Shown here piece by piece: positions 2,926-34,257 of a stretch of 39,348 bases of DNA. The DNA is from Thermoplasmata archaeon (GTDB lineage: Archaea > Thermoplasmatota > Thermoplasmata > Lutacidiplasmatales > UBA184). The stretch spans positions 1 through 39,348 of the forward strand of contig JAKIVT010000007.1 in NCBI GenBank assembly GCA_022750415.1, given 5' to 3'. How positions within the stretch are numbered: position 1 is the first letter of the stretch; each line of letters starts with the position of its first letter. Position numbers and translations under genes: made by a program. Below the pieces are notes generated by a model. That model searched no databases. It saw only the letters and a list, made by a program, of their open reading frames with translations, and had not been told where the DNA came from.

Positions 2926-2939
2926 GGGTATTAATACCC
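2926..2939. promoter_or_regulatory. 14-bp perfect palindrome GGGTATTAATACCC
   Basis: GGGTATTAATACCC equals its own reverse complement. It sits one base upstream of the putative TATA element of the glycosidase gene starting at 2991. AT-rich palindromes are conspicuous in this GC-rich sequence. Overlapping the archaeal BRE/TATA zone, it is a candidate activator or repressor operator. The function is inferred from position only. Confidence 0.5.
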
Positions 2940-11738: not shown

Positions 11739-13244
11739 ATGCCATCGTCGACCGGTCGGGACCGACCGAACCTCCTGCTGGTCGTCCTCGATTGCGTCCG
11801 GGCCTCGGACTTTCCGGGGGGCGCTCAGGCGGTCGGACCGACCCCGTTCCTCGACCGGCTCCGGGCGGAGTCGGTCGATTATCCGAAGGCCGCCAGCGTG
11901 GCCCATTGGACCGTGCCCGCCCACGCCAGCATGTTCACCGGGCTCTATCCTTGGGAGCACGGAGTCCACGCGAAGGGTCTCCTCAAGCTCGACGCGCGAG
12001 GCGAGTCCGTCGGCGCGCTCCTGAGGTCCTCGGGGTACCATACACTGTCGATCTCGGCGAACGGTCTGATCAGCCCCGCCCTCGGCCTCGTCGACGGCAT
12101 CGACCGGAGCGCCTGGGGCGTTTCGCTTTTCAACCGATTCGGCACCGGCGCGCTTCCCCCGAAGCGGTCGGACAACGGCCACGGACCGCCCCCGCAGCCC
12201 GTGGGCCGGGGCCCGCTCTCGAATCTCTCCTACTGGGCCGCCGTCATGCTCGCTCGCTACCCCGGCACGTGGGACTTTCCGACTCGACTCGCGATGCGCT
12301 TGCGGCACCGGTCCGACGGGGCCCGGGCCCGATTGGCGAACTGGCTCGAGCCGACCGCCGGGCGGTGGCTCAAGGAGGCTCCGGCCGACCGCCCCGTGTA
12401 CTGCTTCGTGAACCTGCTCGATGCCCACGAGCCGTACCTCGCCGAACCGGAGGTGGTCCATTCCCTCCGAAGCTGGTGGGAGTACGCGCGGACCCGGCAA
12501 GACCGGCTGGGATGGGTGACCGGAAAATGGAAGCCGACGGCGCGGGAGTATGAGCTCCTCCACGAACTCTACCGGACGATGGTCCAATCGCTCGACCGGC
12601 GGGTCGAGGGTGTGGTGAACGCGTTCCGGGATTCCGGCCGGTGGGAAAACACGACCATGATCCTGACGAGCGACCACGGCCAGGCGTTCGGCGAGCACTC
12701 GGCGCTGTTCCACATCGTCGGGGTCGACGAGCCGGAGCTCCGGGTCCCCTTGAGCGTGCGATTCGCGGGCCGACGCCACGCCGGGACGACCGCGCAGGGC
12801 TGGGCCAGCTTGATCGATGTGTACGCGACCCTCCTCGGCGAGGCGGGCGTACCGCTCCCCGACCGACCGTCCCGACCCGTTTCCCTCGAGCAGCTTCTCG
12901 ACCGGCCCCGGTCCGACCCCGTGTACGCGATGTCGGATGGACTGGTCCACGCGGCCGACCGCAACCAGGTTCCCGGGCCGCGCCGGGAGATGATCGACCG
13001 TCTCTTGGTGGCGGGGTACGAGGGGGAGTACAAGATCGTCCACGACCCGGTGACCGACGGGATCCGGGCCTTCCGACCGGACGGAGACCCCGCCGAGGCT
13101 CTCGACGTCTCGACCACGCACGGACCGGAACTCGCGGCCCTCGCCGAGGGGGTTCGGGAGATCGGCCGACGGATCCTCACCGGCCCGGAGTCCCAACTTC
13201 CGTCCGATGTGGAGGAACGGCTCCGGTCGTGGGGCTACATCTAG
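11739..13244 (+). CDS. Sulfatase-superfamily enzyme with Thr in place of the formylglycine Cys/Ser, 501 aa
   Basis: The alkaline-phosphatase/sulfatase fold is indicated by 'NLLLVVLDCVRASDF' (metal Asp18), 'HWTVPAHASMFTGLYPWEHGVH' and 'TMILTSDHGQAFGEHSALFH' (metal Asp/His). True sulfatases carry C/S-x-P-x-R at the second motif; here it is T-V-P-A-H with Thr58 as candidate nucleophile, so formylglycine chemistry is ruled out. A phospho- or alkyl-transferase or phosphodiesterase activity, as in LtaS-type members, is more likely than sulfate hydrolysis. No signal peptide or membrane span is evident. The C-terminus ends 'EERLRSWGYI', matching the paralog's 'DDVRMKSWGYD'. The next gene starts 10 nt downstream, so the two are probably cotranscribed. 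The start is set by the leaderless TATA spacing. Confidence 0.8.
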   Translation: MPSSTGRDRPNLLLVVLDCVRASDFPGGAQAVGPTPFLDRLRAESVDYPKAASVAHWTVPAHASMFTGLYPWEHGVHAKGLLKLDARGESVGALLRSSGYHTLSISANGLISPALGLVDGIDRSAWGVSLFNRFGTGALPPKRSDNGHGPPPQPVGRGPLSNLSYWAAVMLARYPGTWDFPTRLAMRLRHRSDGARARLANWLEPTAGRWLKEAPADRPVYCFVNLLDAHEPYLAEPEVVHSLRSWWEYARTRQDRLGWVTGKWKPTAREYELLHELYRTMVQSLDRRVEGVVNAFRDSGRWENTTMILTSDHGQAFGEHSALFHIVGVDEPELRVPLSVRFAGRRHAGTTAQGWASLIDVYATLLGEAGVPLPDRPSRPVSLEQLLDRPRSDPVYAMSDGLVHAADRNQVPGPRREMIDRLLVAGYEGEYKIVHDPVTDGIRAFRPDGDPAEALDVSTTHGPELAALAEGVREIGRRILTGPESQLPSDVEERLRSWGYI

Positions 13245-18700: not shown

Positions 18701-19996
18701 GTCTCGCCGAGCCACACGAGCGCGACCGTCACCGTCGACGGCTCGGGGACCGTGTTCGGGATCGTCGCCGGGTTCGTCCTCTCCGGATTCGTGGTGAGTC
18801 CCTTGACCACCGACGTGGGCGCGCTCGTCCACATCAACGTCACCGCGAACGGCACCGGTCCGCTGAGCTACAAGTACCTCGGACTCCCGGTGAACTGCAA
18901 CTCGGTCAACCGGGCGAACGCCTCCTGCCGACCGGGGGCGTCGGGAACGTACCCGATCCACGCCGCCGTCACGGACTCGGGCGGCGCCGTCGAGATGACC
19001 CCCACCCTCCTCCTCAACGTCGTCGGGGACCCCCTCGTCGCCGCGTTCAGTGCGACCCCCGCCGTCGTGGATCTTGGGATCCACGTCGCGTTCTCGGTCA
19101 CCGTCCAACAGGGACTCGGGCCGTACACGTTCCTCTACACGAGCCTCCCACCCGGTTGCGCGACCACCAACGGCCCGACGCTTTCGTGCTCGCCCGGCAT
19201 GGTCGGCCCGTTCCTCGTCAAGGTGACCGTGACCGACTCCGTCGGGCTGGTCACCTCGTCCACGACGTCCCTTACCGTTGAGGCGAACCCGAAGGTGACC
19301 GGAGTCTCCGTCAGCCGCTCGACCCTCGATGTCGGCGCGACCACCTACCTCAACGTCAGCTCGACGGGCGGAACCGGACCCTTCTCGTTCACCTACGCGG
19401 GCCTCCCGGCCGGATGCGCGGCGACGACCGGTCCGAACCTGACGTGCAATCCGACGGTCGCCGGGACGGCGAACGTGACGGCGACGGTCCACGACACCTT
19501 CGGCAGGATCTCGACGAGCTCCGTCGTGACGCTCACGGTACATCCCCGCCCGTCCGTTGCCGCGTTCACCGCCTCCCCGTCCACGATCCACCTGGGGCAA
19601 ATCACCGTGTTTCTCGTGACCACGGCGGGGGGGACCGGCGCCCCGGACTTCGCCTACGCGAGCCTGCCGCCGGGCTGCCCGCCGGGGATCGGACTCCAGA
19701 CGTTCAGTTGCACGCCGAGCGCGACGGGGACGTACTCGGTCACGGTGACGATCGTCGATGCGGACTCGGAGAAGGCGAACGGGACGACCACGCTCACGGT
19801 GGTCCCCGTGGCGGCCGGGAACCCGTCGCCGAACGGCCCGTCCCCGGGTTCCGACATCCAGTGGAAGTACGTCGCGCTCATCGGCGCCATCGCGCTCGTC
19901 ATCGCCGTCGTCCTCGTTTGGCGCTTCGGCCGACCCCCCGAGCCCGTGGTTCCCCCCGCGGAACCCGAGACGGCCCCTCCGGGCGCTCCCCCTTGA
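15794..19996 (+). CDS. Giant multidomain surface protein with Ig-like repeats and C-terminal anchor, 1400 aa
   Basis: A hydrophobic export segment at about residues 38-62 (STAIGIALVLGVLL...) is followed by: a Cys-containing region of about 400 residues unlike any family I know; roughly five InlB-B-like units with 'FGGWTVTGG', 'FASWSATGP', 'FLSWSVLPG', 'FQRWTVSNS', 'FLGWNVTGP' and 'FLGWSTS' (about residues 500-1000); four tandem Ig-like repeats of about 86 residues (about 1000-1340); a membrane span (about 1357-1376) and a Pro/Glu-rich tail. The architecture suggests a rod projecting from the cell surface, perhaps an adhesin or S-layer-associated protein. Sequons are abundant. It follows the GT-C-like gene by 58 nt and may be cotranscribed. 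An ATG at 15857 (MQKGTSRP) is an alternative start. Confidence 0.8.
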   Translation: MKRRSAFLDHAGPAHAGFGRTMQKGTSRPETGRLDRSTAIGIALVLGVLLGPGALLPLGIGAAGPSADTSKTGPSAPTVAPPAPPSQLAGPSVLPAPCDGPWPAFAGPLPNSSGCDGRDQAVAGFYSSVAGGAGNVSMQLTLPVDRTPTANQSDLYRAIWVGLVLSEPAAWMGECFVQIRFQPDANWTPTLGGPATSTNNWTGAVVGWEFDRATGSVDDCVDQPLYSSVASNSTYLALAGGDVLNLTTNGWAGGASGESISVADTTSGAVATINGLNDHGAPLEPAYATANVLNGLSGSAAEIPSVSVGVELAGGANPSIPSNSSFGGCTPGVSPATPANPSIPCPSYDPTSWINDTASPLRFTPPVFTATTTARSSEVLFSSSVGGTAGVTSLSNKTCTGRIGSAYCTYPWYSYSCGAGSFEFGATDYSGVTSDFGEQNQFGSTATPNLLGYSQFAANPFAVPGCGAGSQNVSVGVRAGSGLVQLLGSNYTIPTAVSLTSGAFELTGLPTGGQSFGGWTVTGGCAVGNAASASTTLVVTGAGTVVAQFTATPTLTNVTFDSTGASGSIVLGSVATLGPSGPLATEGNLTSVLLASGSYPIQSAPPPGWAFASWSATGPAYVVESAAAASWLVVSSAGGVATVTAELTPDGTNVTVVAQVVGAGTVSIGGTAIPYNATSRTSIGAVNLSAGTISLVANASPGWRFLSWSVLPGGVSLPGNSTEANVTLANGTAYVFGEFAALVTVLSQPSAGGQVVFDGGPPQSNGSSVPLTPGLHALGAAPFGGYAFQRWTVSNSSALWVSKPLQALTHVTVNTTGTLTAVFASTTNETLTLQAAPAAGGFIQFNFDNLSANPTINTSVAASTFQLHAVANYGYRFLGWNVTGPASVLPGELTVTGTGAVVTARFGARFFPVTFVVTRPGTVALTVNGVAEPSGVTLGLARGVYPLSATVTAPNTTFLGWSTSLVIGNVSPSHTSATVTVDGSGTVFGIVAGFVLSGFVVSPLTTDVGALVHINVTANGTGPLSYKYLGLPVNCNSVNRANASCRPGASGTYPIHAAVTDSGGAVEMTPTLLLNVVGDPLVAAFSATPAVVDLGIHVAFSVTVQQGLGPYTFLYTSLPPGCATTNGPTLSCSPGMVGPFLVKVTVTDSVGLVTSSTTSLTVEANPKVTGVSVSRSTLDVGATTYLNVSSTGGTGPFSFTYAGLPAGCAATTGPNLTCNPTVAGTANVTATVHDTFGRISTSSVVTLTVHPRPSVAAFTASPSTIHLGQITVFLVTTAGGTGAPDFAYASLPPGCPPGIGLQTFSCTPSATGTYSVTVTIVDADSEKANGTTTLTVVPVAAGNPSPNGPSPGSDIQWKYVALIGAIALVIAVVLVWRFGRPPEPVVPPAEPETAPPGAPP
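18790..19805 (+). repeat. Four tandem Ig-like coding repeats of about 86 codons with paired cysteines
   Basis: Units begin near 18790, 19046, 19304 and 19565. Each carries a 'D-V/L-G' start, a 'Y-x-x-L-P-x-G-C' turn, a second Cys 8-11 residues later followed by x-P, then 'G-x-Y/F-x-V-x-V-T-V-x-D'. The two cysteines are conserved in every unit, suggesting one internal disulfide each. Confidence 0.75.
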
Positions 19997-20012
19997 ACCC
20001 CGCCGGCGAATC

Positions 20013-20020
20013 GCTTATCG
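20013..20020 (+). promoter_or_regulatory. Weak TATA-like box (GCTTATCG)
   Basis: This element follows the stop of the giant surface protein gene and predicts transcription near 20043, just upstream of the conserved region of the second sulfatase-fold gene. Confidence 0.35.
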
Positions 20021-20054
20021 TCGTCCCCGGCTGGGTCCGCGCTCGGGGGGTTCC

Positions 20055-21536
20055 GTAGCGACGGTCGCGGCGGAATCCGCCGGTCGGGGGCCGCCCCCGA
20101 ACCTGGTCACGATCGTCCTCGACTGTGTTCGTGCGGAGAGCGTGGCCGCTTTCTCCGGCGGGGCCGGGGCGCCGACCCCCGAGCTCGACCGGCTGGTCTC
20201 GCGCGGGGCGACCCTCTTCTCCCATGCGATTGCGCCGGGGAACTGGACCGTCCCCTCCCACATGTCGATCATGACGGGGACGTACCCGTGGGTCCATCGG
20301 CGACGGACCTTCGAGCGGGGCGACCCGCCGATGGAGACGATCGCCATGTGGCTGCGCCGGCGCGGTTACGCGACCGCGTTGCTGAGCGAGGAAGCTCACC
20401 TCACCGGAGGGTACGGCCTCGAGGCGGGGTACGACGAGAAGTTCAGCCGGCGGATCGGCACCTCCGACGAGAACCGGACGACGGTGAACCGAACCCTCGG
20501 CCACGCGAAGTTCCTCTACTCCGACCCGTTCCGCAACCTCCTCGCGGGGGTCCCGCCGCTCGCCGTGCCGCTGACGACCCTCAACTTCGCGCAGGAGACC
20601 GCCTACAAACGCGACGTCTGCGGCGACTACCTGCTCGGCGATTGGGGTCGGTGGCTCGCCCGCCGACCGAAGGACCAGCCGTTCCACGCCTTCTTCAACT
20701 TCGTCGACGGACACGAGCCGTACCCCGAGCTCGCGGAAGGGCTCATGGACCGATTCTCTCGCCGCGGGTATGCCCAGATCCCGCGGTTCTACCTCCTCTC
20801 CGTACCCGGCTTGAAGGACCGGGTTCCTTGGGACCGGGTCCGTGCCGCCTATCAGAGGGCGATCACCGAAGCCGACCGGAAGGTCGGCCAGGTGATGGCG
20901 CTCCTCGAGAGCGCCGGGGAGCGCGACCGGACCTGGGTCATGGTCACGAGCGACCACGGCCAGTCCTTCGGGGAGGGCGGCAACATTTACCACGGGTGCG
21001 GCGCGAGTGACTCCGTCCTTCGAGTCCCGCTCTGGGTCGTCCCCCCCGGCAGCGTCGATGTTCCGAAGCGGGTCGACCGTTGGGTGACGCTGTGCGACGT
21101 TTCCTCCTGGATGAAATCCGCGGCACTCGGCCGCGTCCCCTACGACGCCGAGGGCCGGCCGGCCCTCCCTTTCCCGGTCTCGCCCCCCGACCGGACCACG
21201 ATCCTCGCGGAGGGCGGGCCGGCTTCCGACCCCAATCGCTCCCTCCTCGGGATCCGGGGGGAGGAAGCGTGGAACCGCCGCCAGATCGCGGCGTACCGGG
21301 GCCGGGAGAAATGGACGGTCGACCTCGTCAACGGGGACGTCCGGCATTGGCCGAACGGGGATGCCGGGGCGGCGGCGCTTCCTCCGCCGCTCGAGGGACA
21401 CGAGGCCACCGAGGCCAAGCACGCGGTGTTCGGAATCTTCAGCGCCGCCGACGTCGTTCGGTACGCCGGGGACGGACGGGAGCTCGTGCGCGACAGTCTC
21501 GACGACGTCCGGATGAAATCGTGGGGGTACGACTAG
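20055..21536 (+). CDS. Sulfatase-superfamily enzyme with Thr nucleophile, second copy, about 493 aa, start unresolved
   Basis: This is a paralog of the 11739 product: 'NLVTIVLDCVRAESV', 'NWTVPSHMSIMTGTYPWVHRR' (Thr replaces the sulfatase Cys/Ser), 'HAFFNFVDGHEPYPE', 'WVMVTSDHGQSFGEGGNIYHG' and a final 'DDVRMKSWGYD'. It should bind two metals and act on a phosphoester or similar group rather than a sulfate ester. The frame is open back to an ATG at 19758, but that start lies 239 nt inside the preceding gene. Between it and the first conserved residues there is no in-frame ATG, GTG or TTG. The nominal start given is a GTA codon that would be an ideal GTG if one base were misread; a CTG at 20031 is another option. 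It is convergent with the phosphohydrolase pair downstream. Confidence 0.75.
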   Translation, partial: VATVAAESAGRGPPPNLVTIVLDCVRAESVAAFSGGAGAPTPELDRLVSRGATLFSHAIAPGNWTVPSHMSIMTGTYPWVHRRRTFERGDPPMETIAMWLRRRGYATALLSEEAHLTGGYGLEAGYDEKFSRRIGTSDENRTTVNRTLGHAKFLYSDPFRNLLAGVPPLAVPLTTLNFAQETAYKRDVCGDYLLGDWGRWLARRPKDQPFHAFFNFVDGHEPYPELAEGLMDRFSRRGYAQIPRFYLLSVPGLKDRVPWDRVRAAYQRAITEADRKVGQVMALLESAGERDRTWVMVTSDHGQSFGEGGNIYHGCGASDSVLRVPLWVVPPGSVDVPKRVDRWVTLCDVSSWMKSAALGRVPYDAEGRPALPFPVSPPDRTTILAEGGPASDPNRSLLGIRGEEAWNRRQIAAYRGREKWTVDLVNGDVRHWPNGDAGAAALPPPLEGHEATEAKHAVFGIFSAADVVRYAGDGRELVRDSLDDVRMKSWGYD

Positions 21537-21620: not shown

Positions 21621-23051
21621 TCAGGACGGTCCAGCCGCCGGCGGCACGCCGGCACCGATGGTCCGCCCTTGGACATGGGCGGGGATCGCGAGACCCCCGA
21701 GGGCGAGCAGGGTCGGGGCCACATCCCGGATCGCCTGCGGGGGAAGTTCCGTCCCCGTGGCCGCCCGGGGGTCCGAGATGAGGAGGACACCGTCGTACGA
21801 ATGGACGGCGTCGTCCGGGCCAGTGTCGTTTTCCTTGAGGTACAGACCCGGGTGTCCGACCGAGCCGGCCGACCGCCACTTCAGGTTCCCAAAGTAGGCC
21901 ATCAGGTCCGGAGGGTCGCCGGTAACGGATTCGTACATCGTCGCCGGATCGAGGAATCGCACGGGCATCGGGGACCCGTCCGGTCCGGACAATCCGGCCA
22001 GCTCCTCGACCAATCGGTCCCGAAGCGCGGCGACGTCCTGGGGCGCCACCACTCCCTGCGCTTCCCGCCCTCGGACGTTGAAGAACAACCGGGCGTAGTA
22101 TCCGCCGGCGCCCCAGACGGTCGTGTGGGCCCAGTCGACGTCGGTCTTCTCGAACGGAGTGGGGGCGGTGGGGGCCGTGCGAAACTTCAGGTAACCGTGT
22201 TCGGCCAACCAGCCGTTGATGCAGAAGCATCCGGCCATCGGCATGCTGCCGTGGTCGGAGGCGACCACGACGATCGCGTCCGCGGGGACATGGGCGAGAA
22301 GTCGCCCCATGCACTCGTCGACGATGGCGTAGTACTCCTCCACGACGTGCTCGAAGGGGTTTCCGGGCACGAAGCCGGGATGGGCCGGGTCAAAGTACTT
22401 CGTGTAGGCGTGGTGGAGCCGGTCGACCCCGATCTCGTGGATGGCGAAGACGTCCCACGGTTCGCGTTGGTACAGCTCCTCCGCGATCGCCCAGCGCTGT
22501 TGGGTCATCTGGACGATGTCCCGGTAGAGCTGCCGTCGCTCGGTGGCGCGGAAGGTGACGTCAAACCGGTAGTGGCCGAACCGAGCGTCGAGCTCGGCGG
22601 CGAGGGCCGCGGGGTAGGTCCAGTCGGTCGCGCCGGACGGGGTCAGGAAGTCCGAAATCGCGATCCCGTTCAGGTGGAGGGGCGGGTACCCCGGCGGCAT
22701 CCCGATCGCGCAGACCCGCCGTCCGGCATCGGAGAACAGCTCCCAGACCGAGGGGACGGGGAGCTTCGAGGTCGGCCCGTAGGTTTCCGTGTAGGAGAAA
22801 TTCTTCCGGTGGCGGAATCCGTAGAGCCCGAGGGTACCGGGGTCGACCCCGGTGAGCATGACCGGCCAGGAGGGGATCGAAATCGGTGGGTCGGTACTGC
22901 GAAGGACCGAATGGACGCCGCGCTGGAGCAGCTTCTGGACGTTGGGCATCCTCGGGAGGCATTGACCGAAGAGGTGTTCCGGGGTGGCCGAGTCGAGACC
23001 GATGACCACGAGGGGTCGCCGACCGCCCACCACCCGCCCGGCTCCCTTCAT
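21621..23051 (-). CDS. AP-superfamily phosphohydrolase (COG3379-like), Ser-nucleophile copy, about 476 aa
   Basis: Type I phosphodiesterase/nucleotide pyrophosphatase-like protein. Visible motifs are 'PLVVIGLDSATPEHLF' (metal Asp), 'DPPISIPSWPVMLTGVDPGTLGLYGFRHR' (nucleophile position is Ser), 'HEIGVDRLHHAY' and 'IVVVASDHGSMPMAGCFCINGWL' (metal ligands), and 'WGAGGYYARLFFNVRGREAQGVV'. No membrane span is evident. The tracked start at 23246 reads through a low-complexity Ser/Arg stretch overlapping the upstream gene; the ATG at 23051 (MKGAGRVVGGRRPLVV) lies 43 nt after the upstream stop and begins just before the first strand, so I chose it. It is the second gene of a tandem pair with 23095-24492. 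The substrate is unknown; glycan or lipid phosphodiesters are plausible from the neighbours. Confidence 0.8.
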   Translation of the reverse strand: MKGAGRVVGGRRPLVVIGLDSATPEHLFGQCLPRMPNVQKLLQRGVHSVLRSTDPPISIPSWPVMLTGVDPGTLGLYGFRHRKNFSYTETYGPTSKLPVPSVWELFSDAGRRVCAIGMPPGYPPLHLNGIAISDFLTPSGATDWTYPAALAAELDARFGHYRFDVTFRATERRQLYRDIVQMTQQRWAIAEELYQREPWDVFAIHEIGVDRLHHAYTKYFDPAHPGFVPGNPFEHVVEEYYAIVDECMGRLLAHVPADAIVVVASDHGSMPMAGCFCINGWLAEHGYLKFRTAPTAPTPFEKTDVDWAHTTVWGAGGYYARLFFNVRGREAQGVVAPQDVAALRDRLVEELAGLSGPDGSPMPVRFLDPATMYESVTGDPPDLMAYFGNLKWRSAGSVGHPGLYLKENDTGPDDAVHSYDGVLLISDPRAATGTELPPQAIRDVAPTLLALGGLAIPAHVQGRTIGAGVPPAAGPS

Positions 23052-23094
23052 TCGGGGACGTTCGCTCCCGACCCAGCTGGTCCGGGCCGCCGGA

Positions 23095-24492
23095 CTACAG
23101 GAGCTCCGGGATGGGTTTCCCCTGGACGTTGGCCGCCGGCTCGATGCCCATGCGCTTGAGGATCGTCGGCCCGATGTCGATGCCGACCTTCGGTTCGAGG
23201 TGGACCGAACCGGTCGTGCCGGGCGTTCGCACCGCGAAGATGCCATCGAACGAGTGGACCGAGTCGTCCGGACCGGTGTCGTTCTCCTCGAGGAAGAGAC
23301 CGCCGTATCCGATCGTCCCGGCCGATCGCCAGCGAAGGTCGCCGAAGTAGATCATCAGGTCGGGCGCGTCGCCCCGCACCTGTCGGTAGATCTTCGCCGG
23401 GATCTTGACATCCGGCTGGAGCGGTTGACCGTCCGGCCGACGGACCTCCGCGAGTTCGCGGGACATCCGTTCGATGGTCGCGGGCACGTCGGCGGGAGCG
23501 AGAATTCCCTCGGGTTCCCGGCCTTTGACGTTGAAGAAGATCCGGGCGTAGTAGCCGCCCGCCCCCCACGCCGTGGTCTTCGACCAGTCGATGGGGTACT
23601 TCTCGATCGCCGTGCCGCGCTTTTCCGGAGGACTCTTCAGGGTGAGGTACCCTTTCTGGATGAGCCACTCGTTGATGCAGAAGCAACCGTCCATCCCCTG
23701 GCTTCCATGGTCGGAGAGGACCATGACGGTGACGTCGTCCGGCACGAGCGCCATGAATTGCCCGATCTCTTCGTCCATCAACCGGTAGTAGTCGTCCACC
23801 AGCTTCGCGAACGCGGGATGCTTCTCGAACCTCGGATGCTTCTCGTCGAAGAATTTCCAGAACGTGTGATGGAGCCGGTCCGGGCCGATCTCGTGGAGCG
23901 CGAAGAAGTCCCACTTCTCTTTCTTCCAGAAGTGGCGCGCGACGGCCCAGCGCTTCCTCGTCATCTCGAACAACTCGACCCCGATCCGCTCCCGGTCCTC
24001 GGCCCGGAACGTGACGTCGAACTCGTAGCCGCCGGCGACCGCGAGGACCTCCGGGGCGAGGGACGCGGGGTGGACGAAGTCCTTCGCTTTCTGGGGGGTG
24101 AGGAAGTCGGAGATGTAGATCCCGTTGATCTTCGGCGGGGGGTACCCCGGCGGCATCCCGATCACGGCGCACCGCTTGCCGAGGCGCGTGAGCACCTCCC
24201 AAACCGGAGGGTGCGGGAGCATCTGGGGGCTGGGGGAGTACGTGTCCCAGTAGGTTCGGGGGCGCCGGTGCCGGAACCCGTAGATCCCGAGGGACCCCGG
24301 ATCCATGCCGGTGAACATCACGGCCCACGACGGGACGGTGATCGGTGGGTCGCACGCTTTGAGCGTCCCCCACTGGCACCGGGCGAGCAACTTTTGTAGG
24401 TTCGGCATTAGGCTTCGGAACCGGTCGAACAGAAGTTCGGGCGGAACCGAATCGAGGCCAAGAACGAGGACGCGTTCCGACGGAGGACCCAT
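23095..24492 (-). CDS. AP-superfamily phosphohydrolase (COG3379-like), Thr-nucleophile copy, 465 aa
   Basis: Same family as the adjacent downstream gene: 'RVLVLGLDSVPPELLFDRF', 'DPPITVPSWAVMFTGMDPGSLGIYGFRHR' (Thr nucleophile), 'HEIGPDRLHHTFWKFFDEKHPRF', 'VMVLSDHGSQGMDGCFCINEWLIQKGYL', 'WGAGGYYARIFFNVKGREPEGIL' and 'ENDTGPDDSVHSFDGIFAV'. The length is typical of the family. Two divalent metals and a covalent phospho-Thr intermediate are expected from the superfamily. A TATA-like box 27 nt upstream of the ATG suggests a leaderless transcript that also carries the 21621 gene. It is divergent from the glycan-assembly run, with which it shares a 220-nt promoter region. It is probably cytoplasmic, since no signal is visible. 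Confidence 0.83.
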   Translation of the reverse strand: MGPPSERVLVLGLDSVPPELLFDRFRSLMPNLQKLLARCQWGTLKACDPPITVPSWAVMFTGMDPGSLGIYGFRHRRPRTYWDTYSPSPQMLPHPPVWEVLTRLGKRCAVIGMPPGYPPPKINGIYISDFLTPQKAKDFVHPASLAPEVLAVAGGYEFDVTFRAEDRERIGVELFEMTRKRWAVARHFWKKEKWDFFALHEIGPDRLHHTFWKFFDEKHPRFEKHPAFAKLVDDYYRLMDEEIGQFMALVPDDVTVMVLSDHGSQGMDGCFCINEWLIQKGYLTLKSPPEKRGTAIEKYPIDWSKTTAWGAGGYYARIFFNVKGREPEGILAPADVPATIERMSRELAEVRRPDGQPLQPDVKIPAKIYRQVRGDAPDLMIYFGDLRWRSAGTIGYGGLFLEENDTGPDDSVHSFDGIFAVRTPGTTGSVHLEPKVGIDIGPTILKRMGIEPAANVQGKPIPELL

Positions 24493-24524: not shown

Positions 24525-24670
24525 TTGACCGCCGACCGTCGATGGAACTCGGGGGACGAGACCCGGTCGGGAGCCCCGTTCTTCGGGGATTCCGGCCACC
24601 GCCGACCGAAACGGTGAGTACGTATGCGTGTGTCTCACATAGACACGCGATTTCGGAACCGGGGATAAGG

Positions 24671-24678
24671 CATTAAGA
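24671..24678 (+). promoter_or_regulatory. TATA-like box (CATTAAGA) upstream of the GT2 gene
   Basis: Centred about 25 nt upstream of an ATG at 24699 that opens a five-codon frame. The predicted transcription start abuts the 18-bp palindrome at 24701-24718. Confidence 0.5.
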
Positions 24679-24698
24679 AGGGGACTTCCGTCGAGAAG

Positions 24699-24716
24699 AT
24701 GCTCAATACGTATTGA
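24699..24716 (+). other. Possible five-codon leaderless ORF (MLNTY)
   Basis: ATG CTC AAT ACG TAT TGA lies at the spacing expected for a leaderless start. Its TGA overlaps the TTG at 24713 that opens the GT2 frame. It also coincides with a perfect palindrome, so the bases may be constrained by DNA binding rather than coding. Confidence 0.25.
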
Positions 24717-24718
24717 GC
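24701..24718. promoter_or_regulatory. 18-bp perfect palindrome GCTCAATACGTATTGAGC
   Basis: The 18 bases equal their own reverse complement and lie at the predicted transcription start of the GT2/phosphohexomutase/flippase run. This is a classic position and symmetry for a dimeric repressor operator. The core AATACGTATT shares ATACGTATT with the promoter at 2944-2952. Confidence 0.6.
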
Positions 24719-26119
24719 GAAACCGGGAACGAGGAGAACGCGACGACCACCATGAACGAGCCCAGCGACCTGCACTCCCCGACCCCGGGGTCCGTACCGG
24801 TCGCCATTCTCCTTCCGACGCTCAACGAAGAGGAGGGGCTCGCCCGGACCCTCGACGACATTCCGGTCGACCACCTTCGGTCCGCCGGGTTCGACCCGAC
24901 GTTCGTGGTGGTCGACGGCCACTCCACCGACCGCACGCTCGAGGTCGCCCGCAAATACGGCGCGACGATCCTTGTTCAGACCTCGAAGGGCAAGGGCGGG
25001 GCGACGCGGGAGGGGCTCGCGTGGGCCCAGGCGCACGGGATGCGGTACGCCGTCCTCATCGACGCCGACTTCACCTATCCCGGAACCGGGATCGCCTCGC
25101 TGCTCTCGCTGCTCGAGGCCGGCTCGGACTTGGTCATCGGCGTCCGCCGCCCGGAGTTCAACCCGCTCGGGGTCGTCCGCGCCGCGATCCACCGACTCGG
25201 GGATGGCCTCCTCAACTACATCGCCGCTCAGCTGAGCCACTCCCCCATCCTCGACATCTGCAGCGGCCTCTGGGGAATCCGTACCTCGGTCGTGGAGGGG
25301 CTCGAGCTCGAGTCGACCGGATTCGAGATCGAGGCCGAGGTGTTCCTCAAGTCGTTCCGCTCCGGTCTCCGCGTCTCCCAGATCCCGATCTCCTACCGCA
25401 ACCGAGTCGGCGTGGCGAAGCTCCACGCGGTGCAGGACGGGGCCAAGATCCTTCTCGGCATCGTCCGCCACTCCGGTGCCGCCCAGATTCGCGCCGACCC
25501 GCTCCGGTCCCACCGGCAGGCCCCCCGCCAGCCGTTGCGGGACCTCCAGGCGATCTGCCTGGCCACCGACTCCCATGACCTCGTCATTTTCAGCCCTCTC
25601 GCGCGCGTCGCCGAGGCGAACGACCTCTCCCGGCGGCTCAGCGCGGGCAAGATCGGCGTCAAGATCACGATCATCCCGTACGACCCGCTGAAGCAGTCGG
25701 TGGTCGGCCCGCCGTCGCCGCTCCCCCTCGCCGCCGCCGTGTCAATCGACGGGCGTGTCCCCATCGTCGTGTCGCTGCCGGGCGAGTCGTCCGATTCGGA
25801 CCCGATGTCGGTCGCGGTCGTCGGTCTTCCCAACAGCCGGCGGCTGGTGTGCGTGCCGATCGGGGCCGACCAGTTCGGCGACGACCCATTCGCCCTCCCG
25901 GAGCACATGACCCGCTCGGGAGGCTACCAGCTCGAACCGGCCGCCCGCGCCCGGTTCCGCTCGCTTTCCATCCTGACCTCGTCGTTCAACGGCTCGGTCC
26001 AGCAGAAGGAGCTCGCCCTGCTCCGCGCGAACGCCGACTCGCTCCGGGTGTACCGCGAGACCGCGCGGGGCGAGACCTCCTCGAGCGTCGTCCCGACGGG
26101 CGTCGAATCCTCGGCGTAA
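24713..26119 (+). CDS. AglJ-like dolichyl-phosphate hexose synthase (GT2) with extra C-terminal domain, 468 aa
   Basis: Residues about 28-260 are a GT2 fold: 'VAILLPTLNEEEGLARTLDDIP', 'VVVDGHSTDRTLEVARKYGATILVQTSKGKGGATREGL', 'AVLIDADFTYPG' (DxD-type metal/nucleotide site), 'DICSGLWGIRTSVVEGL', 'GFEIEAEVFLKS' and 'KLHAVQDGAKILLGIVRHS'. This matches archaeal AglJ/DPM1-type enzymes that load a sugar from a nucleotide donor onto dolichol phosphate at the inner membrane face. Residues about 270-455 form a second alpha/beta-looking domain ('LVIFSPLARVAEANDLSRRLSAGKIGVKITIIPYDPL') that I do not recognise. No C-terminal membrane helices are visible. The start is either the TTG at 24713, inside the palindrome, or more conventionally the ATG at 24752. 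It leads the glycan-assembly run. Confidence 0.8.
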   Translation: MSETGNEENATTTMNEPSDLHSPTPGSVPVAILLPTLNEEEGLARTLDDIPVDHLRSAGFDPTFVVVDGHSTDRTLEVARKYGATILVQTSKGKGGATREGLAWAQAHGMRYAVLIDADFTYPGTGIASLLSLLEAGSDLVIGVRRPEFNPLGVVRAAIHRLGDGLLNYIAAQLSHSPILDICSGLWGIRTSVVEGLELESTGFEIEAEVFLKSFRSGLRVSQIPISYRNRVGVAKLHAVQDGAKILLGIVRHSGAAQIRADPLRSHRQAPRQPLRDLQAICLATDSHDLVIFSPLARVAEANDLSRRLSAGKIGVKITIIPYDPLKQSVVGPPSPLPLAAAVSIDGRVPIVVSLPGESSDSDPMSVAVVGLPNSRRLVCVPIGADQFGDDPFALPEHMTRSGGYQLEPAARARFRSLSILTSSFNGSVQQKELALLRANADSLRVYRETARGETSSSVVPTGVESSA

Positions 26120-26206: not shown

Positions 26207-27598
26207 ATGGCGGACGAACCAATCCCCCGACTGTTCGGGACGGACGGGATCCGCCGGGTCGTCAACGCCGAGTTCTCCCCGGTGTTCATCGCGGAGGTCG
26301 CCGCCGCAACCGCCGAATTCCTGCAGGGGGAAAGCCCGGTGCTCATCGCCCAGGACTACCGGACGACGAGCCCGGGAATCGCCCGAATCCTCGCGGGGGT
26401 CCTCGCCATGGACGGGATCGACGTCGTGGAACTCGGGGCCATGCCGACGCCGTGCTTGCAGTACAACGTCCGCGCCCTCCACGCCCGACTGGGATTGATG
26501 GTCACGGCCTCCCACAATCCGACCGATTTCAACGGGATCAAGTTCTCCGGCCCGGAAGGGATGGAGATCACGCCGGAAGAGGAGCACACCATCGAGCGGA
26601 ACGTCCACCGCCGCCAATTCGCGGTGCCGAAGTGGGACCGGGCCCTTCCCGTCCGCCGCGACACGGACGGGGTCGCTCGGTACCTCCGTTCGATCGTTGG
26701 CCTCGTGGACCGCCCACGCATCGCTGCGCGCAAGTTCCGCGTCGTCCTGGACTGCGGGAACGGGACCAGCGCAGCCACCAGCCCCGAACTCCTCCGTTCC
26801 CTGGGGTGCCGGTTGACCACCCTCAACGCGAGCCCCGACGGCCACTTCCCCGGTCACCCCTCCGAACCGACGGAGGCGAACCTCTCGGACCTCCGCCAGG
26901 CCGTGGTCGCGTTCGGCGCCGACTTCGGCGTCGCGCACGACGGGGACTCCGACCGGGTCGCGTTCGTGGACGAGACGGGCCGCTACATTCCCGGTGAGGA
27001 AGCGCTCGGGCTGTTCGCGCGTGAAATGCTCCGGCGCAACGGGGGCGGAACGATCGTCACGAGCGTCACCTCGACGCGGTGCGTCGAGGAGGTCGTCCGG
27101 CAGGGCGGCGGCAAGCTCGTCATCACCCGCTCCGGGTCCTTGCCGGTCGCGCGGGGCATTTCGGACGAGCAGGCCGTCTTCGGGGGAGAAGAGAACGGCG
27201 GGTTCTACTGGCCGAAACACCAGGTCGCCCGGGATGGACCGGCGAGCTCCGCGATGCTGCTCGACCTCCTCGCCGAAACCGGGCGATCGCTCGGCCAGCT
27301 GCTCGCCGACCTCCCGAAGTACCACGTGGTCAAACGGAACGTTCCCCTCCCCGGCGTCGCCAAGGCGCGGGTCATGGAGCGGGTCCAGAAAACTCTCGGA
27401 GGTGACGCGGACCACCTCGTCACGCTCGACGGGGTGAAGGCGTTCTACAAGGACGGTTGGATCCTCGTTCGACCGTCCGGCACCGAGCCGGTTTGCCGCG
27501 TCTACGCCGAGAGCCAGGACGGCGCGAAGGCGAAGGCGATGTGCGAGCGGGCCGTCGACCTCGTCGCGTCGCTCGTCCAGGAAGCGACCGCCGCGTAG
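26207..27598 (+). CDS. glmM: Phosphohexomutase, GlmM-like (phosphoglucosamine/phosphomannomutase), 463 aa
   Basis: All four alpha-D-phosphohexomutase signatures are present: 'FGTDGIR' near the N-terminus, the phosphoserine loop 'TASHNP' with Ser102, the Mg2+ loop 'DGDSDR', the sugar-specificity loop 'GGEENGG' and the phosphate-binding 'RPSGTEP' near the C-terminus. The length matches the family. It interconverts hexose 6- and 1-phosphates to provide sugar-1-phosphate for nucleotide-sugar synthesis in the cytoplasm. FGTDGIR favours a GlmM-type glucosamine enzyme, but archaeal members can be bifunctional with mannose or glucose phosphates, so the exact substrate is uncertain. The flippase gene starts 28 nt downstream, indicating cotranscription. 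Confidence 0.88.
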   Translation: MADEPIPRLFGTDGIRRVVNAEFSPVFIAEVAAATAEFLQGESPVLIAQDYRTTSPGIARILAGVLAMDGIDVVELGAMPTPCLQYNVRALHARLGLMVTASHNPTDFNGIKFSGPEGMEITPEEEHTIERNVHRRQFAVPKWDRALPVRRDTDGVARYLRSIVGLVDRPRIAARKFRVVLDCGNGTSAATSPELLRSLGCRLTTLNASPDGHFPGHPSEPTEANLSDLRQAVVAFGADFGVAHDGDSDRVAFVDETGRYIPGEEALGLFAREMLRRNGGGTIVTSVTSTRCVEEVVRQGGGKLVITRSGSLPVARGISDEQAVFGGEENGGFYWPKHQVARDGPASSAMLLDLLAETGRSLGQLLADLPKYHVVKRNVPLPGVAKARVMERVQKTLGGDADHLVTLDGVKAFYKDGWILVRPSGTEPVCRVYAESQDGAKAKAMCERAVDLVASLVQEATAA

Positions 27599-27626: not shown

Positions 27627-29255
27627 ATGGAATTCGCCCCACCTCCCCCCCTGGGTCCAGCCCGGTCGGACGTCGCGAAGCGCGACGACGCCTACCACCA
27701 CTCGCTCCACATCGTCGGCAAGGGGACGGCCGTCATGGCCGCGAGCACCGTCCTCCTGCTGGTTTTCAGCTTCTTCGGGCGGGTCGGATTGGCCCGGGCC
27801 TTCGGCGTCGACGCGTGGGGGCAGTTCTCCATCGGCCTCGCGCTCACCGGCCTCCTCTCGCTGGTCGCCCTTCTCGGGCTGAATCAGGCGATTGCCCGCT
27901 CGATCTCGTACGAGCGGGACCCCGCCGAGCGCCGCGCTCTGATTCGCTGGGGGCTGCTGATCACCGGCATCGCCTCCATCGTGATCTCGACTCTGGTCTA
28001 CCTCGCCGCCCCCGACCTCGCCGCGCTCTTCCACAACTCGTCGCTGACGATCGTCTTCCAACTGTTCAGCATCACCATCGGATTCCAAATGATGGCCGCG
28101 ATGCTTGCGTCCATCTTCCAGGGATTCGAGGACAGCGCCCCGAACGCCTGGTTCAACGGGGTCGCGGCCCCCGCCTTGTTTGTCCTTTTCCTCGGCGCCG
28201 TGCTCCTCCTCCACCTCGGGTTCACGGCCGCCCTGCTCGGTTACACGGCGAGTCAGGCGGTGACCCTCGGTCTCCTGGTCGCCTACACGGTGCGGAAGCT
28301 CCCCAACCACCTCCCCCCGGTCGACCACGTCCCGTCTCGCCCCCGCTCCCAGCTTTGGACCCTCTCGGTCGCCCTCTGGGGGGTGGCCTCCCTTCAGTTC
28401 GTCACCGCGTACGTCGACACGCTCATCCTCGGCGTCTTCCGGGACACCGCCACGGTCGGGCTCTACTCGACCGCGATGATCCTCGGCCGCCTCTTGCTCG
28501 TCGGCAACGGCGCGCTGACGTACATCTACATGCCCACGGCGGCCCGGCTGACGGCCCAGAACGACCGCGAAACGATCCGGCGCACCTTCGTGACCTCGAC
28601 CCGCTGGACCCTCGCGATCACTGTGCCGATGTTCCTGCTCTTTGTCTGCCTCCCGTCCCAGTCGATCAACACCGTCTTCGGCCCGAAATTCCTCGGCGCG
28701 ACCGGCGCGCTCGAGATCCTCGTCCTCGGTTCGTTCTTCTCGGTCACCCTCGGACCCGTCAACGCGTGCATGGCCGGGATGGGGTACGCACGTCCGCTGC
28801 TCGTCACCACGGGGATCGCCGCCGCGTCGAACCTGATCCTCAGCTTCGGACTCATCCCCTTCTACGGGCTGATCGGGGCGGCCGTGGCCTGGACCGTCGC
28901 GCGGTGCCTCTACCCCGGCGTCGGGCTTCTGTACCTGTACCGGACCGACCGGATCACTCCGTACCGGCGCATCCTCGTCGTCCCGGTCCTCGTGACCCTC
29001 GCGGTCGGGCTTCCCCTGTTCCTCTTCGTCGGGACCCTGCCGGTCTCCAAGTTCGTGGTGTTCCCGCTGTACTTCGTCGGCGTCGGCCTGTTCCTCGCCG
29101 CGCTCGTCCTCACCCGGAGCCTCGACCCGGGCGACGCGGTCGCGGCCTCGGTCCTCGAGAAGCTGACCGGACGGCCGATGCCGGCGCTTCGCCGGCTCAT
29201 CCGCCGATACTCGCTGCGCCCAGCCGCTCCCCCGTTGCCGGAGACCTTCGCGTGA
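27627..29255 (+). CDS. Wzx/MATE-type polysaccharide flippase, 542 aa
   Basis: The protein is almost entirely hydrophobic, with about 12-14 membrane segments separated by short loops. The N-terminal stretch 'YHHSLHIVGKGTAVMAASTVLLLVFSFFGRVGLARAFGVDAWGQFSIGLAL' is typical of the MOP-superfamily polysaccharide exporters (polysaccharide_synt family), as are 'VDTLILGVFRDTATVGLYSTAMILGRLL' and 'FGLIPFYGLIGAAVAW'. It should move lipid-linked oligosaccharides from the cytoplasmic to the outer face. A weak GGAG lies 9 nt before the ATG. Its TGA overlaps the next gene's GTG as GTGA, so translation of flippase and GT4 is probably coupled. The C-terminal tail of about 40 residues is polar. Confidence 0.88.
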   Translation: MEFAPPPPLGPARSDVAKRDDAYHHSLHIVGKGTAVMAASTVLLLVFSFFGRVGLARAFGVDAWGQFSIGLALTGLLSLVALLGLNQAIARSISYERDPAERRALIRWGLLITGIASIVISTLVYLAAPDLAALFHNSSLTIVFQLFSITIGFQMMAAMLASIFQGFEDSAPNAWFNGVAAPALFVLFLGAVLLLHLGFTAALLGYTASQAVTLGLLVAYTVRKLPNHLPPVDHVPSRPRSQLWTLSVALWGVASLQFVTAYVDTLILGVFRDTATVGLYSTAMILGRLLLVGNGALTYIYMPTAARLTAQNDRETIRRTFVTSTRWTLAITVPMFLLFVCLPSQSINTVFGPKFLGATGALEILVLGSFFSVTLGPVNACMAGMGYARPLLVTTGIAAASNLILSFGLIPFYGLIGAAVAWTVARCLYPGVGLLYLYRTDRITPYRRILVVPVLVTLAVGLPLFLFVGTLPVSKFVVFPLYFVGVGLFLAALVLTRSLDPGDAVAASVLEKLTGRPMPALRRLIRRYSLRPAAPPLPETFA

Positions 29256-30415
29256 CGGCACGGACCGGACCGGTGACGGTGGTCGTCCCCCTTCCCCCGA
29301 CGTACCGGGGAGGGACGGAGGAGTACGCCTACCAGCTCGTGCGACGGTACGCCGAGCACCGCCCGGTCCTTGCGCTCGCGACGACCGCCCGCTACACCCC
29401 GGAGACCGGCTCGATCGATATCGGCAAGGCCCGGCTCGAACTCCTCGCGGCCCGGGAAACGATGGAGCGCCCGCTCCTCCTGGGACGCGCACCCCGGCGC
29501 CGTCTTCGGGACGCGGTGGGCGCCGCCTCCGTGGTCCAACTCCATATGCCGTTCCCGATGGTCGAGGGACCGGTCGTCAAATGGGCCCGTCGGGCCGGCG
29601 TCCCCACGGTCCTGACGTACCACATGGACGCCGACCTCGCCGGGGCGTCCAGCACGCCTGGCGCCGGGCTCGTGACCCCAGCCTACCGTCGGATCTCGGC
29701 GTTTCCCGCCCTGGCGGGGTGCGATATCGTGGTCTCGAACAGCCGCGGATATGCGGAGGCGTCGCCCGTACTTTCTCGCTACCTTCCGAAGGTGCGGGTC
29801 ATCCCCAAGGGAGCGGACCTCGACCGCCTCGGCGTCGGCCGAACGAACTCCCGCTCCCGCCCACCTTCGGTCCCTTCGGATGTCCAGGGTCCGACCGTGG
29901 CGTTCGTCGGTCGATTGGTCCCGTACAAGGGCATCTCCGTCCTCCTCGAGGCGACGGAACGTTTGCTTCGCGAGGGAGAGAAGCTCACGGTGATGATCGC
30001 GGGCCGGGGCCCGCTTCTGGAAGAATTGAAGAACGACGTCGGGCGGCGGAAGCTCGAGACAGCGGTCCGCTTCCTCGGGTTCGTCCCCGATGAGCAGATC
30101 GGTGACCTGTACCGGTTTGCCGACGTGGTCTGTTGTCCGTCGATCGGGACCTTGGAGTCGTCGGCCACGACCCTCGAGGAGGCGGCCATGTGCGGGACCC
30201 CCGTGGTGGGCTCCGACTTGCCGGGCGCCTCCGAGTCCATCCCCCACGACGGTACGCGGGGCTTGTTGGTGCCCGCGAACGACGCGGGAGCCTTGGGCCA
30301 CGCGCTCCGGAGGCTCCTCGGTCAGGAACGACCGAGCGGGTCGCCCCCGGTTCGGACCTGGGACGACGTAGCGCGAGACTACGAGCGTCTCTTCGACGAG
30401 CTCGGCGGGCGCTGA
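29252..30415 (+). CDS. GT4 family glycosyltransferase, 387 aa
   Basis: The GT-B fold is shown by 'VVVPLPPTYRGGTEEYAYQLVRRY' at the N-terminus, 'TVAFVGRLVPYKGISVLLEA' at the start of the donor domain, 'IAGRGPLLEELKN' and the E-x7-E motif in 'ESSATTLEEAAMCGTPVVGSDLPGASE'. It is a retaining, nucleotide-sugar-dependent transferase acting at the cytoplasmic membrane face, probably extending the lipid-linked glycan. The ORF-track line beginning at 27815 is a frame extension over the flippase; the GTG at 29252, which overlaps the flippase stop by four bases, is the natural start (VTARTGPVTVVVPLPP). The gene ends 35 nt before a convergent surface-protein gene. Confidence 0.87.
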   Translation: MTARTGPVTVVVPLPPTYRGGTEEYAYQLVRRYAEHRPVLALATTARYTPETGSIDIGKARLELLAARETMERPLLLGRAPRRRLRDAVGAASVVQLHMPFPMVEGPVVKWARRAGVPTVLTYHMDADLAGASSTPGAGLVTPAYRRISAFPALAGCDIVVSNSRGYAEASPVLSRYLPKVRVIPKGADLDRLGVGRTNSRSRPPSVPSDVQGPTVAFVGRLVPYKGISVLLEATERLLREGEKLTVMIAGRGPLLEELKNDVGRRKLETAVRFLGFVPDEQIGDLYRFADVVCCPSIGTLESSATTLEEAAMCGTPVVGSDLPGASESIPHDGTRGLLVPANDAGALGHALRRLLGQERPSGSPPVRTWDDVARDYERLFDELGGR

Positions 30416-32301: not shown

Positions 32302-32838
32302 ATGAAAGAACGGGGATTCTGCATCTGGCTGACGGGACTGCCGAGCGCCGGAAAGACGACGATCGCAAAGGAGCTCACGCCGCGGCTCCAGGCGATGGGT
32401 CGGTACACCGAACTGCTGGACGGGGACGAGGTCCGCAAGGGGATCAGTTCCGACCTCGGATTCGACCGGAAGGCGCGCGAGATGCACGCCGGCCGGGTCA
32501 CGTACGTGGCCAAGGTCCTCGCCCGCAACGGGGTCATCCCCGTCGTCGCCCTGATCAGCCCCTACCGTTCCTCCCGCGCCAAGGCCCGCAGCGAGATCGG
32601 CAGCTTCGTCGAGGTGTACGTCGACACCCCGCTCGACCTCTGCGAACAGCGGGACGTCAAGGGACTCTACAAGAAGGCCCGTGCCGGCGAGATCAAGGAG
32701 ATGACCGGCGTGGACGACCCGTACGAACCGCCCGAGCACCCGGAGATCCTGGTGGACACCCGCTCTTCGACGCCGGCCCAATCGGCGGAGCGGATCATCG
32801 GGGAGCTCCGGCGGCTCGGTTGGCTCCCCGCCGCGTAG
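32302..32838 (+). CDS. cysC: Adenylylsulfate (APS) kinase, 178 aa
   Basis: Single-domain APS kinase of normal length. The Walker A P-loop 'GLPSAGKTT' spans residues 12-20, followed by 'LLDGDEVRKGISSDLGF', 'VVALISPYRSSR' and the family signature 'CEQRDVKGLYKKARAGEIKEMTGVDDPYEPPEHPEI'. It phosphorylates APS at the 3' position to give PAPS in the cytoplasm. It is convergent with the ATP sulfurylase gene 35 nt away. The two enzymes make PAPS in sequence, and with no APS or PAPS reductase in the window, supply of a sulfate donor for sulfated glycans or lipids is a reasonable reading. Confidence 0.93.
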   Translation: MKERGFCIWLTGLPSAGKTTIAKELTPRLQAMGRYTELLDGDEVRKGISSDLGFDRKAREMHAGRVTYVAKVLARNGVIPVVALISPYRSSRAKARSEIGSFVEVYVDTPLDLCEQRDVKGLYKKARAGEIKEMTGVDDPYEPPEHPEILVDTRSSTPAQSAERIIGELRRLGWLPAA

Positions 32839-32846
32839 CGGCCCAG

Positions 32847-32871
32847 GGGGCGGGCGGTGCCCGCTCGCCCC
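32847..32871. terminator. Hairpin between convergent cysC and sat
   Basis: GGGGCG ... CGCCCC encloses an inner GGGC-GGT-GCCC. It fills nearly all of the 35 nt between the stop codons at 32838 (+) and 32874 (-), so it probably lies at the 3' ends of both messages. Confidence 0.4.
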
Positions 32872-32873
32872 TC

Positions 32874-34037
32874 TCAGCCCTGTGTGACGTTGGGCTGACG
32901 GAGGATCTCGGCGACTTCCGGGCGGAGGATCTCGCCCGGGAGCGGCTGGCCCTCGGCGAGCGCCTTGCGGATTCTCGTCTGGCTCGTGTCCACGCGGTCG
33001 GACGCCGGATGGGGGCACGTCTTCATCGTCGCCATCCACCCGCACTTGCGGCACAGCCAGGCTTCGTCGTAGCAGAGCGCCTGGATGCCGATGTCGTACT
33101 CCTCGAAGATCCGTTGGCAGGCGTACGGGTCGTAGTACTTCCCGACCCCCGCCTGGTCGCGACCGACGATGTAGGACGAGCACCCGAAGTTCTTCCGAAC
33201 GATCGCGAGGAACAACGCCGCCTTGGGGCCGGCGTAGCGCATCGCGATCGAGAACGCCGCCAGATGGACCCGGTTGGCGGGAATGTAATTTTGAACCAGG
33301 GCCCGGTACGCTTGCAGGATGATGTCCGGTCGGTAGTCGCCCGCTTTCAGCCGGCCGACGACCGGGTGGATCAGCAGTGCATCGACGTCCTGGCGCTCGA
33401 GGGTGAGCCGCTGCAGGTACTCGTGGGCGGTGTGCGGCGGGTTACGGCATTGGTAGGCCGAGACGCGCTTCCACCCGTTCTTCTCGAAGAGGGCGCGGGT
33501 CTCCGTCGGGGTCATCTCGTCGGGGCCGGTCGGTAGGTCGAGCCGCCGGACCAGGTCGACCTTGCCCGCGAGCGCGACGTCGCCGGTCGCTTGAATGTCG
33601 GCGACGTTGGGATGTTGGACCTCCGTGGTGCCGTACGTCGACTGCGCCCAGACCTTCCGGTCGGGGGAGAACTTCTCTTCGAGATGCAGGAGGGCGAACA
33701 ACCGACCGGACCCGTCCAGGAGCCCGACCTCATCGCCCGGCGAGAGGGCTCGGATCGTCGCGGCGTTCTCCGGCCCGGGCGGCGTGAGGAGAATCGGCAT
33801 CGACCAGGGAAGGTCGTTCGGCAGGCGGTTCCCGGAGAGCACGCCCTCGAACGTGGCGCGGTTCATGAACCCCTCGAGGGGGCTGTACGCCCCGACCCCG
33901 ATCTTCTCGGCGTCGTAGACATCGTCGATGAACGGGCGGAGCTCCGGGAGGTCGTCGACCTCCGCTTCCCGCCGGGCCCGGTCGGAATCGGAGAGTTCTC
34001 GGCGGATGAGGCGGCCGCCGTGCGGCGGGATCGTCAC
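32874..34037 (-). CDS. sat: ATP sulfurylase (sulfate adenylyltransferase), 387 aa
   Basis: Single-domain ATP sulfurylase. The catalytic motifs are 'QCRNPPHTAHEYLQR' (Q196 onward), 'IHPVVGRLKAGD' and 'RYAGPKAALFLAIVRKNFGCSSYIVGRDQAGVG'. The last normally reads GRDHAG; here His is replaced by Gln. 'LCRKCGWMATMKTCPH' supplies a zinc-binding Cys/His set as in other prokaryotic single-domain enzymes. It forms APS and pyrophosphate from ATP and sulfate. The tracked ATG at 34184 adds a low-complexity Pro-rich leader; the GTG at 34037 (VTIPPHGGRLIRRELS) is preceded by a strong GGAGGT and matches the usual family N-terminus. The product feeds the convergent APS kinase. Confidence 0.92.
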   Translation of the reverse strand: MTIPPHGGRLIRRELSDSDRARREAEVDDLPELRPFIDDVYDAEKIGVGAYSPLEGFMNRATFEGVLSGNRLPNDLPWSMPILLTPPGPENAATIRALSPGDEVGLLDGSGRLFALLHLEEKFSPDRKVWAQSTYGTTEVQHPNVADIQATGDVALAGKVDLVRRLDLPTGPDEMTPTETRALFEKNGWKRVSAYQCRNPPHTAHEYLQRLTLERQDVDALLIHPVVGRLKAGDYRPDIILQAYRALVQNYIPANRVHLAAFSIAMRYAGPKAALFLAIVRKNFGCSSYIVGRDQAGVGKYYDPYACQRIFEEYDIGIQALCYDEAWLCRKCGWMATMKTCPHPASDRVDTSQTRIRKALAEGQPLPGEILRPEVAEILRQPNVTQG

Positions 34038-34040
34038 AGG

Positions 34041-34046
34041 ACCTCC
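34041..34046 (-). promoter_or_regulatory. Shine-Dalgarno GGAGGT deciding the sat start
   Basis: On the minus strand GGAGGTCCT immediately precedes the GTG at 34037. It is the best ribosome-binding site noted in the window, with a short spacer, and it argues against the ORF-track start at 34184. Confidence 0.65.
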
Positions 34047-34257
34047 AGGGTGGGGGGGGGCACCGTTGGGACCGAGAGGAGGGCCGGCCGCCGAAGGATT
34101 CGAGGCATCGGCGTCGCGCTGGGTCGGGCGTTGATACCCTTTGCGGCGGTCCGACCTTTCGTCGCACCGGCCGGTTCTTCCCACCGTCTCCGGCCCAACC
34201 GGACAACCGCCGCCGTTTCTTCTGCCCGCTGGGAAACGCCCCGGGGCGGACGCCCGG

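Follow-up and report, generated by a model that had tools for sequence, protein, structure and literature searches.

A candidate start-site operator and a better conserved upstream dyad at the promoter of a glycan-assembly operon in a Thermoplasmata archaeon

What is a perfect inverted repeat doing at the point where transcription of a glycan-assembly operon is predicted to begin, and is it the element that controls this operon? The window, that is the whole stretch of 39,348 nucleotides analysed here, contains at positions 24701-24718 the exact 18-bp palindrome GCTCAATACGTATTGAGC, which is symmetric and so assigned to neither strand, lies at the predicted promoter (predicted +1 to +18), and is a candidate operator or a candidate leader hairpin with a 7-bp stem and an ACGU loop. 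The host is a Thermoplasmata archaeon, and very probably one of the Ca. Lutacidiplasmatales, a group of Thermoplasmatota from acid soils with about 69% GC, under which the metagenome-assembled genomes AcS1-3 and AcS5-58 are listed (PMC9287336); these two and SubAcS9-61 are its closest relatives with a name. Its genome (G000) falls in the same genus as the sister species G010 and as G061, which is compared here together with G041 as a further congener. A preliminary description of the locus gave the palindrome correctly as sequence, overstated its significance, placed the start codon wrongly, and missed a second dyad further upstream.

The operon concerned runs on the plus strand and begins with a family 2 glycosyltransferase (GT2) gene (24752-26119; PF00535), followed by genes for an archaeal phosphoglucosamine mutase, GlmM (26207-27598; TIGR03990, 494 bits for a cutoff of 439), a MOP-type, Wzx-like polysaccharide flippase (27627-29255; PF01943), and a family 4 glycosyltransferase (GT4) whose GTG start is approximate (29252-30415; PF00534/PF13692 on the frame 27815-30415). 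The GT2 protein scores 144 bits against the AglJ model TIGR04182, below its curated cutoff of 325, so that the AglJ label is approximate and only "AglJ-like" is used here. On the minus strand, a type I phosphodiesterase/nucleotide pyrophosphatase gene (23095-24492; PF01663) diverges from the operon, and is likewise adjacent in G010, G041 and G061, where the order of GT2, GlmM and flippase genes and of the divergent phosphodiesterase is the same. This phosphodiesterase gene forms a tandem with a paralogue at 21621-23246, and both are conserved. In line with the preliminary description, no regulator gene was found among the proteins of the window scanned against Pfam, a set that covers some of the small open reading frames.

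Where does transcription of this operon start? A promoter motif learned de novo by expectation-maximisation on 241 upstream regions is TATA-like, cGAAccTTTAtatc, and lies most often about 37 bases ahead of the start codon, the spacing that leaderless genes should show. In the intergenic region, its best match is the predicted TATA element AACCTTTTATTC of the divergent phosphodiesterase gene (24526-24515, minus strand), in which ATAAAAG is kept in four species, and whose position is consistent with a leaderless start at the ATG at 24492. The plus-strand match at 24666-24679 is weaker than the latter, and its conservation in four species lends it support (GGCATTAAGAAGGGG / GGCCTTAAGAGGGGG); it constitutes the BRE/TATA predicted for the glycan operon, with the sequence TAAGGCATTAAGAA here and AAAAAGGCCTTAAGAG in G041 and G061, from which a start at about 24699-24706, probably near 24701, is predicted. 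The placing of the palindrome at the transcription start is thus supported by the de novo motif, the start itself being a prediction. In contrast, the TTG at 24713, which the palindrome was said to overlap as the start codon of the GT2 gene, can be discarded: it reads TTC in G010, and the stretch between it and the ATG at 24752 contains both a +1 and a -1 indel that break the frame. The aligned start is the ATG at 24752, so that the palindrome would occupy positions +1 to +18 of a leader of about 52 nt.

Is the palindrome itself remarkable? At a GC content of 68-69%, as in this genome, self-complementary stretches are frequent, and the statistics, drawn from 246 kb of G000 and from 400 kb of the sister genome G010, show how little its length means: perfect 18-bp palindromes number 3 in the window (0.7 expected from first-order shuffles), 6 in the 246 kb of G000 (3.0 expected from shuffles) and 8 in the 400 kb of G010 (8.3 expected). 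Palindromes this long are therefore common by chance in this genome, length by itself is no evidence, and rarity as an argument for function is ruled out by the shuffles. The first rival explanation is that the palindrome is a stretch of ordinary leader, symmetric by accident and devoid of function, which the sister species still has because the two diverged a short time ago, or which owes its symmetry to a template-switch mutation, with only the upstream block being functional. The two other 18-bp palindromes of the window, both within coding sequence, speak for such an accident. Position and composition are better evidence than length, and the placement is better than chance: the palindrome at 24701-24718 is intergenic and AT-rich in a 69% GC genome, and with one 18-bp palindrome per about 40-50 kb, simple arithmetic puts the number expected within a 20-bp zone at any given start site at about 0.0005. 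Elsewhere in the window (2926-2939), a 14-bp palindrome, GGGTATTAATACCC, which precedes the ATG at 2991 by about 50 bp, is probably a symmetric TATA-type element, and its copy in G010 is degraded (GAGTATAAATACCA).

The comparison with related species bears on the same question. The four congeners G000, G010, G041 and G061 share a common syntenic operon, and all keep the upstream block described below. The orthologous site of G010, GCTGAATACGTATTCGGC, has an unchanged 10-bp core, one C/G pair has been swapped symmetrically to G/C, and one A has become G, a change that gives a T-G mismatch as far as DNA symmetry is concerned, or a U-G pair at the RNA level; this promoter thereby keeps AATACGTATT, with 8 of 9 symmetric pairs after three changes. 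How much weight can these changes bear? Identity between G000 and G010 is 15/18 (83%) across the palindrome versus about 65% in flanking noncoding DNA (P about 0.07), three random changes include a compensated pair with a probability of 0.066 in simulation, and for random changes the probability that all seven stem pairs are kept with every change in the arms is 0.017. Of 13 aligned palindromes, all 14 bp or longer and differing at two or more positions, this one retains the largest share of its symmetric pairs, which tells against chance, whereas a compensated pair is also found in 2 of the 12 others used as a control set, which tells for it, as does a P value for conservation in the sister species of about 0.07 only. 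The support that the sister species provides is real but modest. At the orthologous promoters of G061 (CTAGTCAGGACGTCCGACT) and G041 (TTGCTCAAACGGACCG) the palindrome is not kept, though the upstream block is, and this loss in two of three orthologous promoters again favours an accidental origin. In a more distant orthologue from SubAcS9-61 (L072, about 3880-3950), unrelated GC-rich inverted repeats, GGGTCGTCCTGCGACCC and GGGTCAGTGACCC, lie directly downstream of a TATA-like element (fold z -2.1).

The preliminary description proposed a search for the palindrome and its near matches. This search shows that GCTCAATACGTATTGAGC is present in a single copy in the 2.0-Mb genome and that coding sequence of the same genome contains no copy at up to 3 mismatches, but it yields no second site marking a regulon: with 2-3 mismatches allowed, the own genome and 78 congeners return only the orthologous site of G010 and unrelated weak matches. 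The sole other site of the host genome within 3 mismatches, GCTCAATTCGAATTCAGC at C154:47192-47209, immediately precedes a gene for a small membrane protein, and was rejected as a second target because its counterpart in G010, GCTCAAATTGAACCCAGC, is not symmetric. Of the two findings that the preliminary description named as arguing against an operator, lack of conservation at orthologous promoters is thus observed in G061 and G041, while copies within coding sequence are absent. Taken together, an operator that overlies the start of the glycan-assembly operon is plausible and the leading reading, partly supported by its position and by the symmetric double change in the sister species, and weakened by its absence from G061 and G041, by the lack of a regulon in the genomes searched and by that of a linked regulator among the window proteins scanned; binding by a dimeric regulator, as first suggested, stays putative. 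Chance is a serious alternative for the palindrome, if a less likely one, but not for the upstream block.

This block covers 81 bp of the plus strand (24614-24694), from the dyad to just before the predicted start. Its profile (R1) matches a single site in each of G000, G010, G041 and G061 (E about 1e-25), and gives no credible match in the other 74 of the 78 congeners. Between the two closest species, G000 and G010, identity reaches 95% on the dyad side and 92% on the TATA side, compared with about 65% for the noncoding DNA on its flanks and 83% for a wider alignment including genes; the block stands above coding-level identity. Within it, the dyad TGTGTCTCACATAGACAC (24629-24646, no strand assigned), with arms GTGTCT/AGACAC and a 5-bp spacer, lies at about -63 from the predicted start and is a candidate activator-type site. 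Its spacing to the TATA element is exactly the same in all four species, whereas the divergent gene lies at differing distances from it, which indicates that the dyad belongs to the glycan operon. Pattern and profile searches of the own genome and the congeners reveal no second copy and hence no regulon motif. A short open reading frame across the dyad, MRVSHIDTRFRNRG*, is probably noncoding, as its stop is lost in G061 and G041 and the differences are not codon-like. As judged from the alignments, the conserved upstream block and its dyad, about 60 bases upstream of the start, are the better conserved control element and a better lead than the palindrome.

A hairpin right at the 5' terminus of the mRNA, with a 7-bp stem and an ACGU loop, acting on mRNA stability or translation, is improbable. 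In its favour, the local fold is stable (-8.2 kcal/mol, z -4.1), the third change in G010 (A to G) keeps a G-U pair while breaking the DNA symmetry, leaving 7 of 7 stem pairs, and in G061 a bulged stem is possible whose ACGU loop is identical and equally far from TATA. Against it, neither G010 nor G061 has this hairpin in the minimum-energy fold of its complete leader, whole-leader z-scores are only -1.6, -1.2, 0.0 and -2.3, the G061 version is no better than shuffles (z -0.36), and there is no Rfam match up to an E value of 1.

How could two dissimilar dyads serve one promoter? The explanation we favour, tentatively and with confidence just short of even, is a two-element archaeal promoter that combines an upstream activator-type site with a lineage-specific repressor-type operator over the start. 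The TATA/BRE at 24666-24679 would set the start near 24701, and the palindrome would cover the initially transcribed DNA, where a dimeric repressor of the winged-HTH type would block the recruitment or the escape of RNA polymerase. Control would come mainly, and probably as activation, from the second dyad at 24629-24646, which is conserved upstream of BRE in four species with its spacing fixed. That proteins bind at palindrome and dyad, and with which sign, we infer by analogy with published site positions, as archaeal sites upstream of BRE/TATA activate and those at the start repress (PMC4158304). Such an architecture follows known archaeal rules and would be ordinary in kind. A bolder version, which we consider unlikely, is that one glycan promoter carries a deeply conserved gene-specific activator site together with a fast-turnover start-site operator, each served by a dedicated single-target regulator. 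We know of no regulator-site pair for surface glycans in this uncultured order; if the two-element reading is right, the synthesis of surface glycans in uncultured archaea of acid soils would have two concrete control sites open to testing, with the conserved 81-bp block as bait for regulator discovery.

Known systems offer partial parallels. In Sulfolobus acidocaldarius, the GntR-type regulator YtrASa binds a semi-palindrome covering the start, and has only two targets (PMC6746942). The palindrome resembles these start-site operators in being a (semi-)palindromic site downstream of BRE/TATA over the predicted start, with a very small target set (PMC6746942), and differs from them in that the motif is unrelated by eye, a second target was not found, and the start is predicted. 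TrmB, TrmBL1 and Tgr of Thermococcales likewise activate sugar-related genes from palindromic sites that precede BRE/TATA and repress them from sites at the start (PMC4158304); unlike in those systems, two unlike dyads here occupy both positions of one promoter, no TrmB gene was located, and, on reading the sequences, neither dyad has the form of the TrmB motif TACT-N3-AGTA (PMC4158304). As for the genes, the locus recalls haloarchaeal AglJ/dolichyl-phosphate hexose transferase loci, since the best NCBIfam match of the first gene is AglJ (TIGR04182), but its context of GlmM, Wzx-like flippase, GT4 and divergent phosphodiesterases is different. Convergent genes for APS kinase and ATP sulfurylase (32302-34184) neighbour the glycan operon, the pair being syntenic in three congeners, and sulfatase-like genes are found elsewhere in the window (11739-13244 and 19758-21536); this setting suggests that the glycans may be sulfated.
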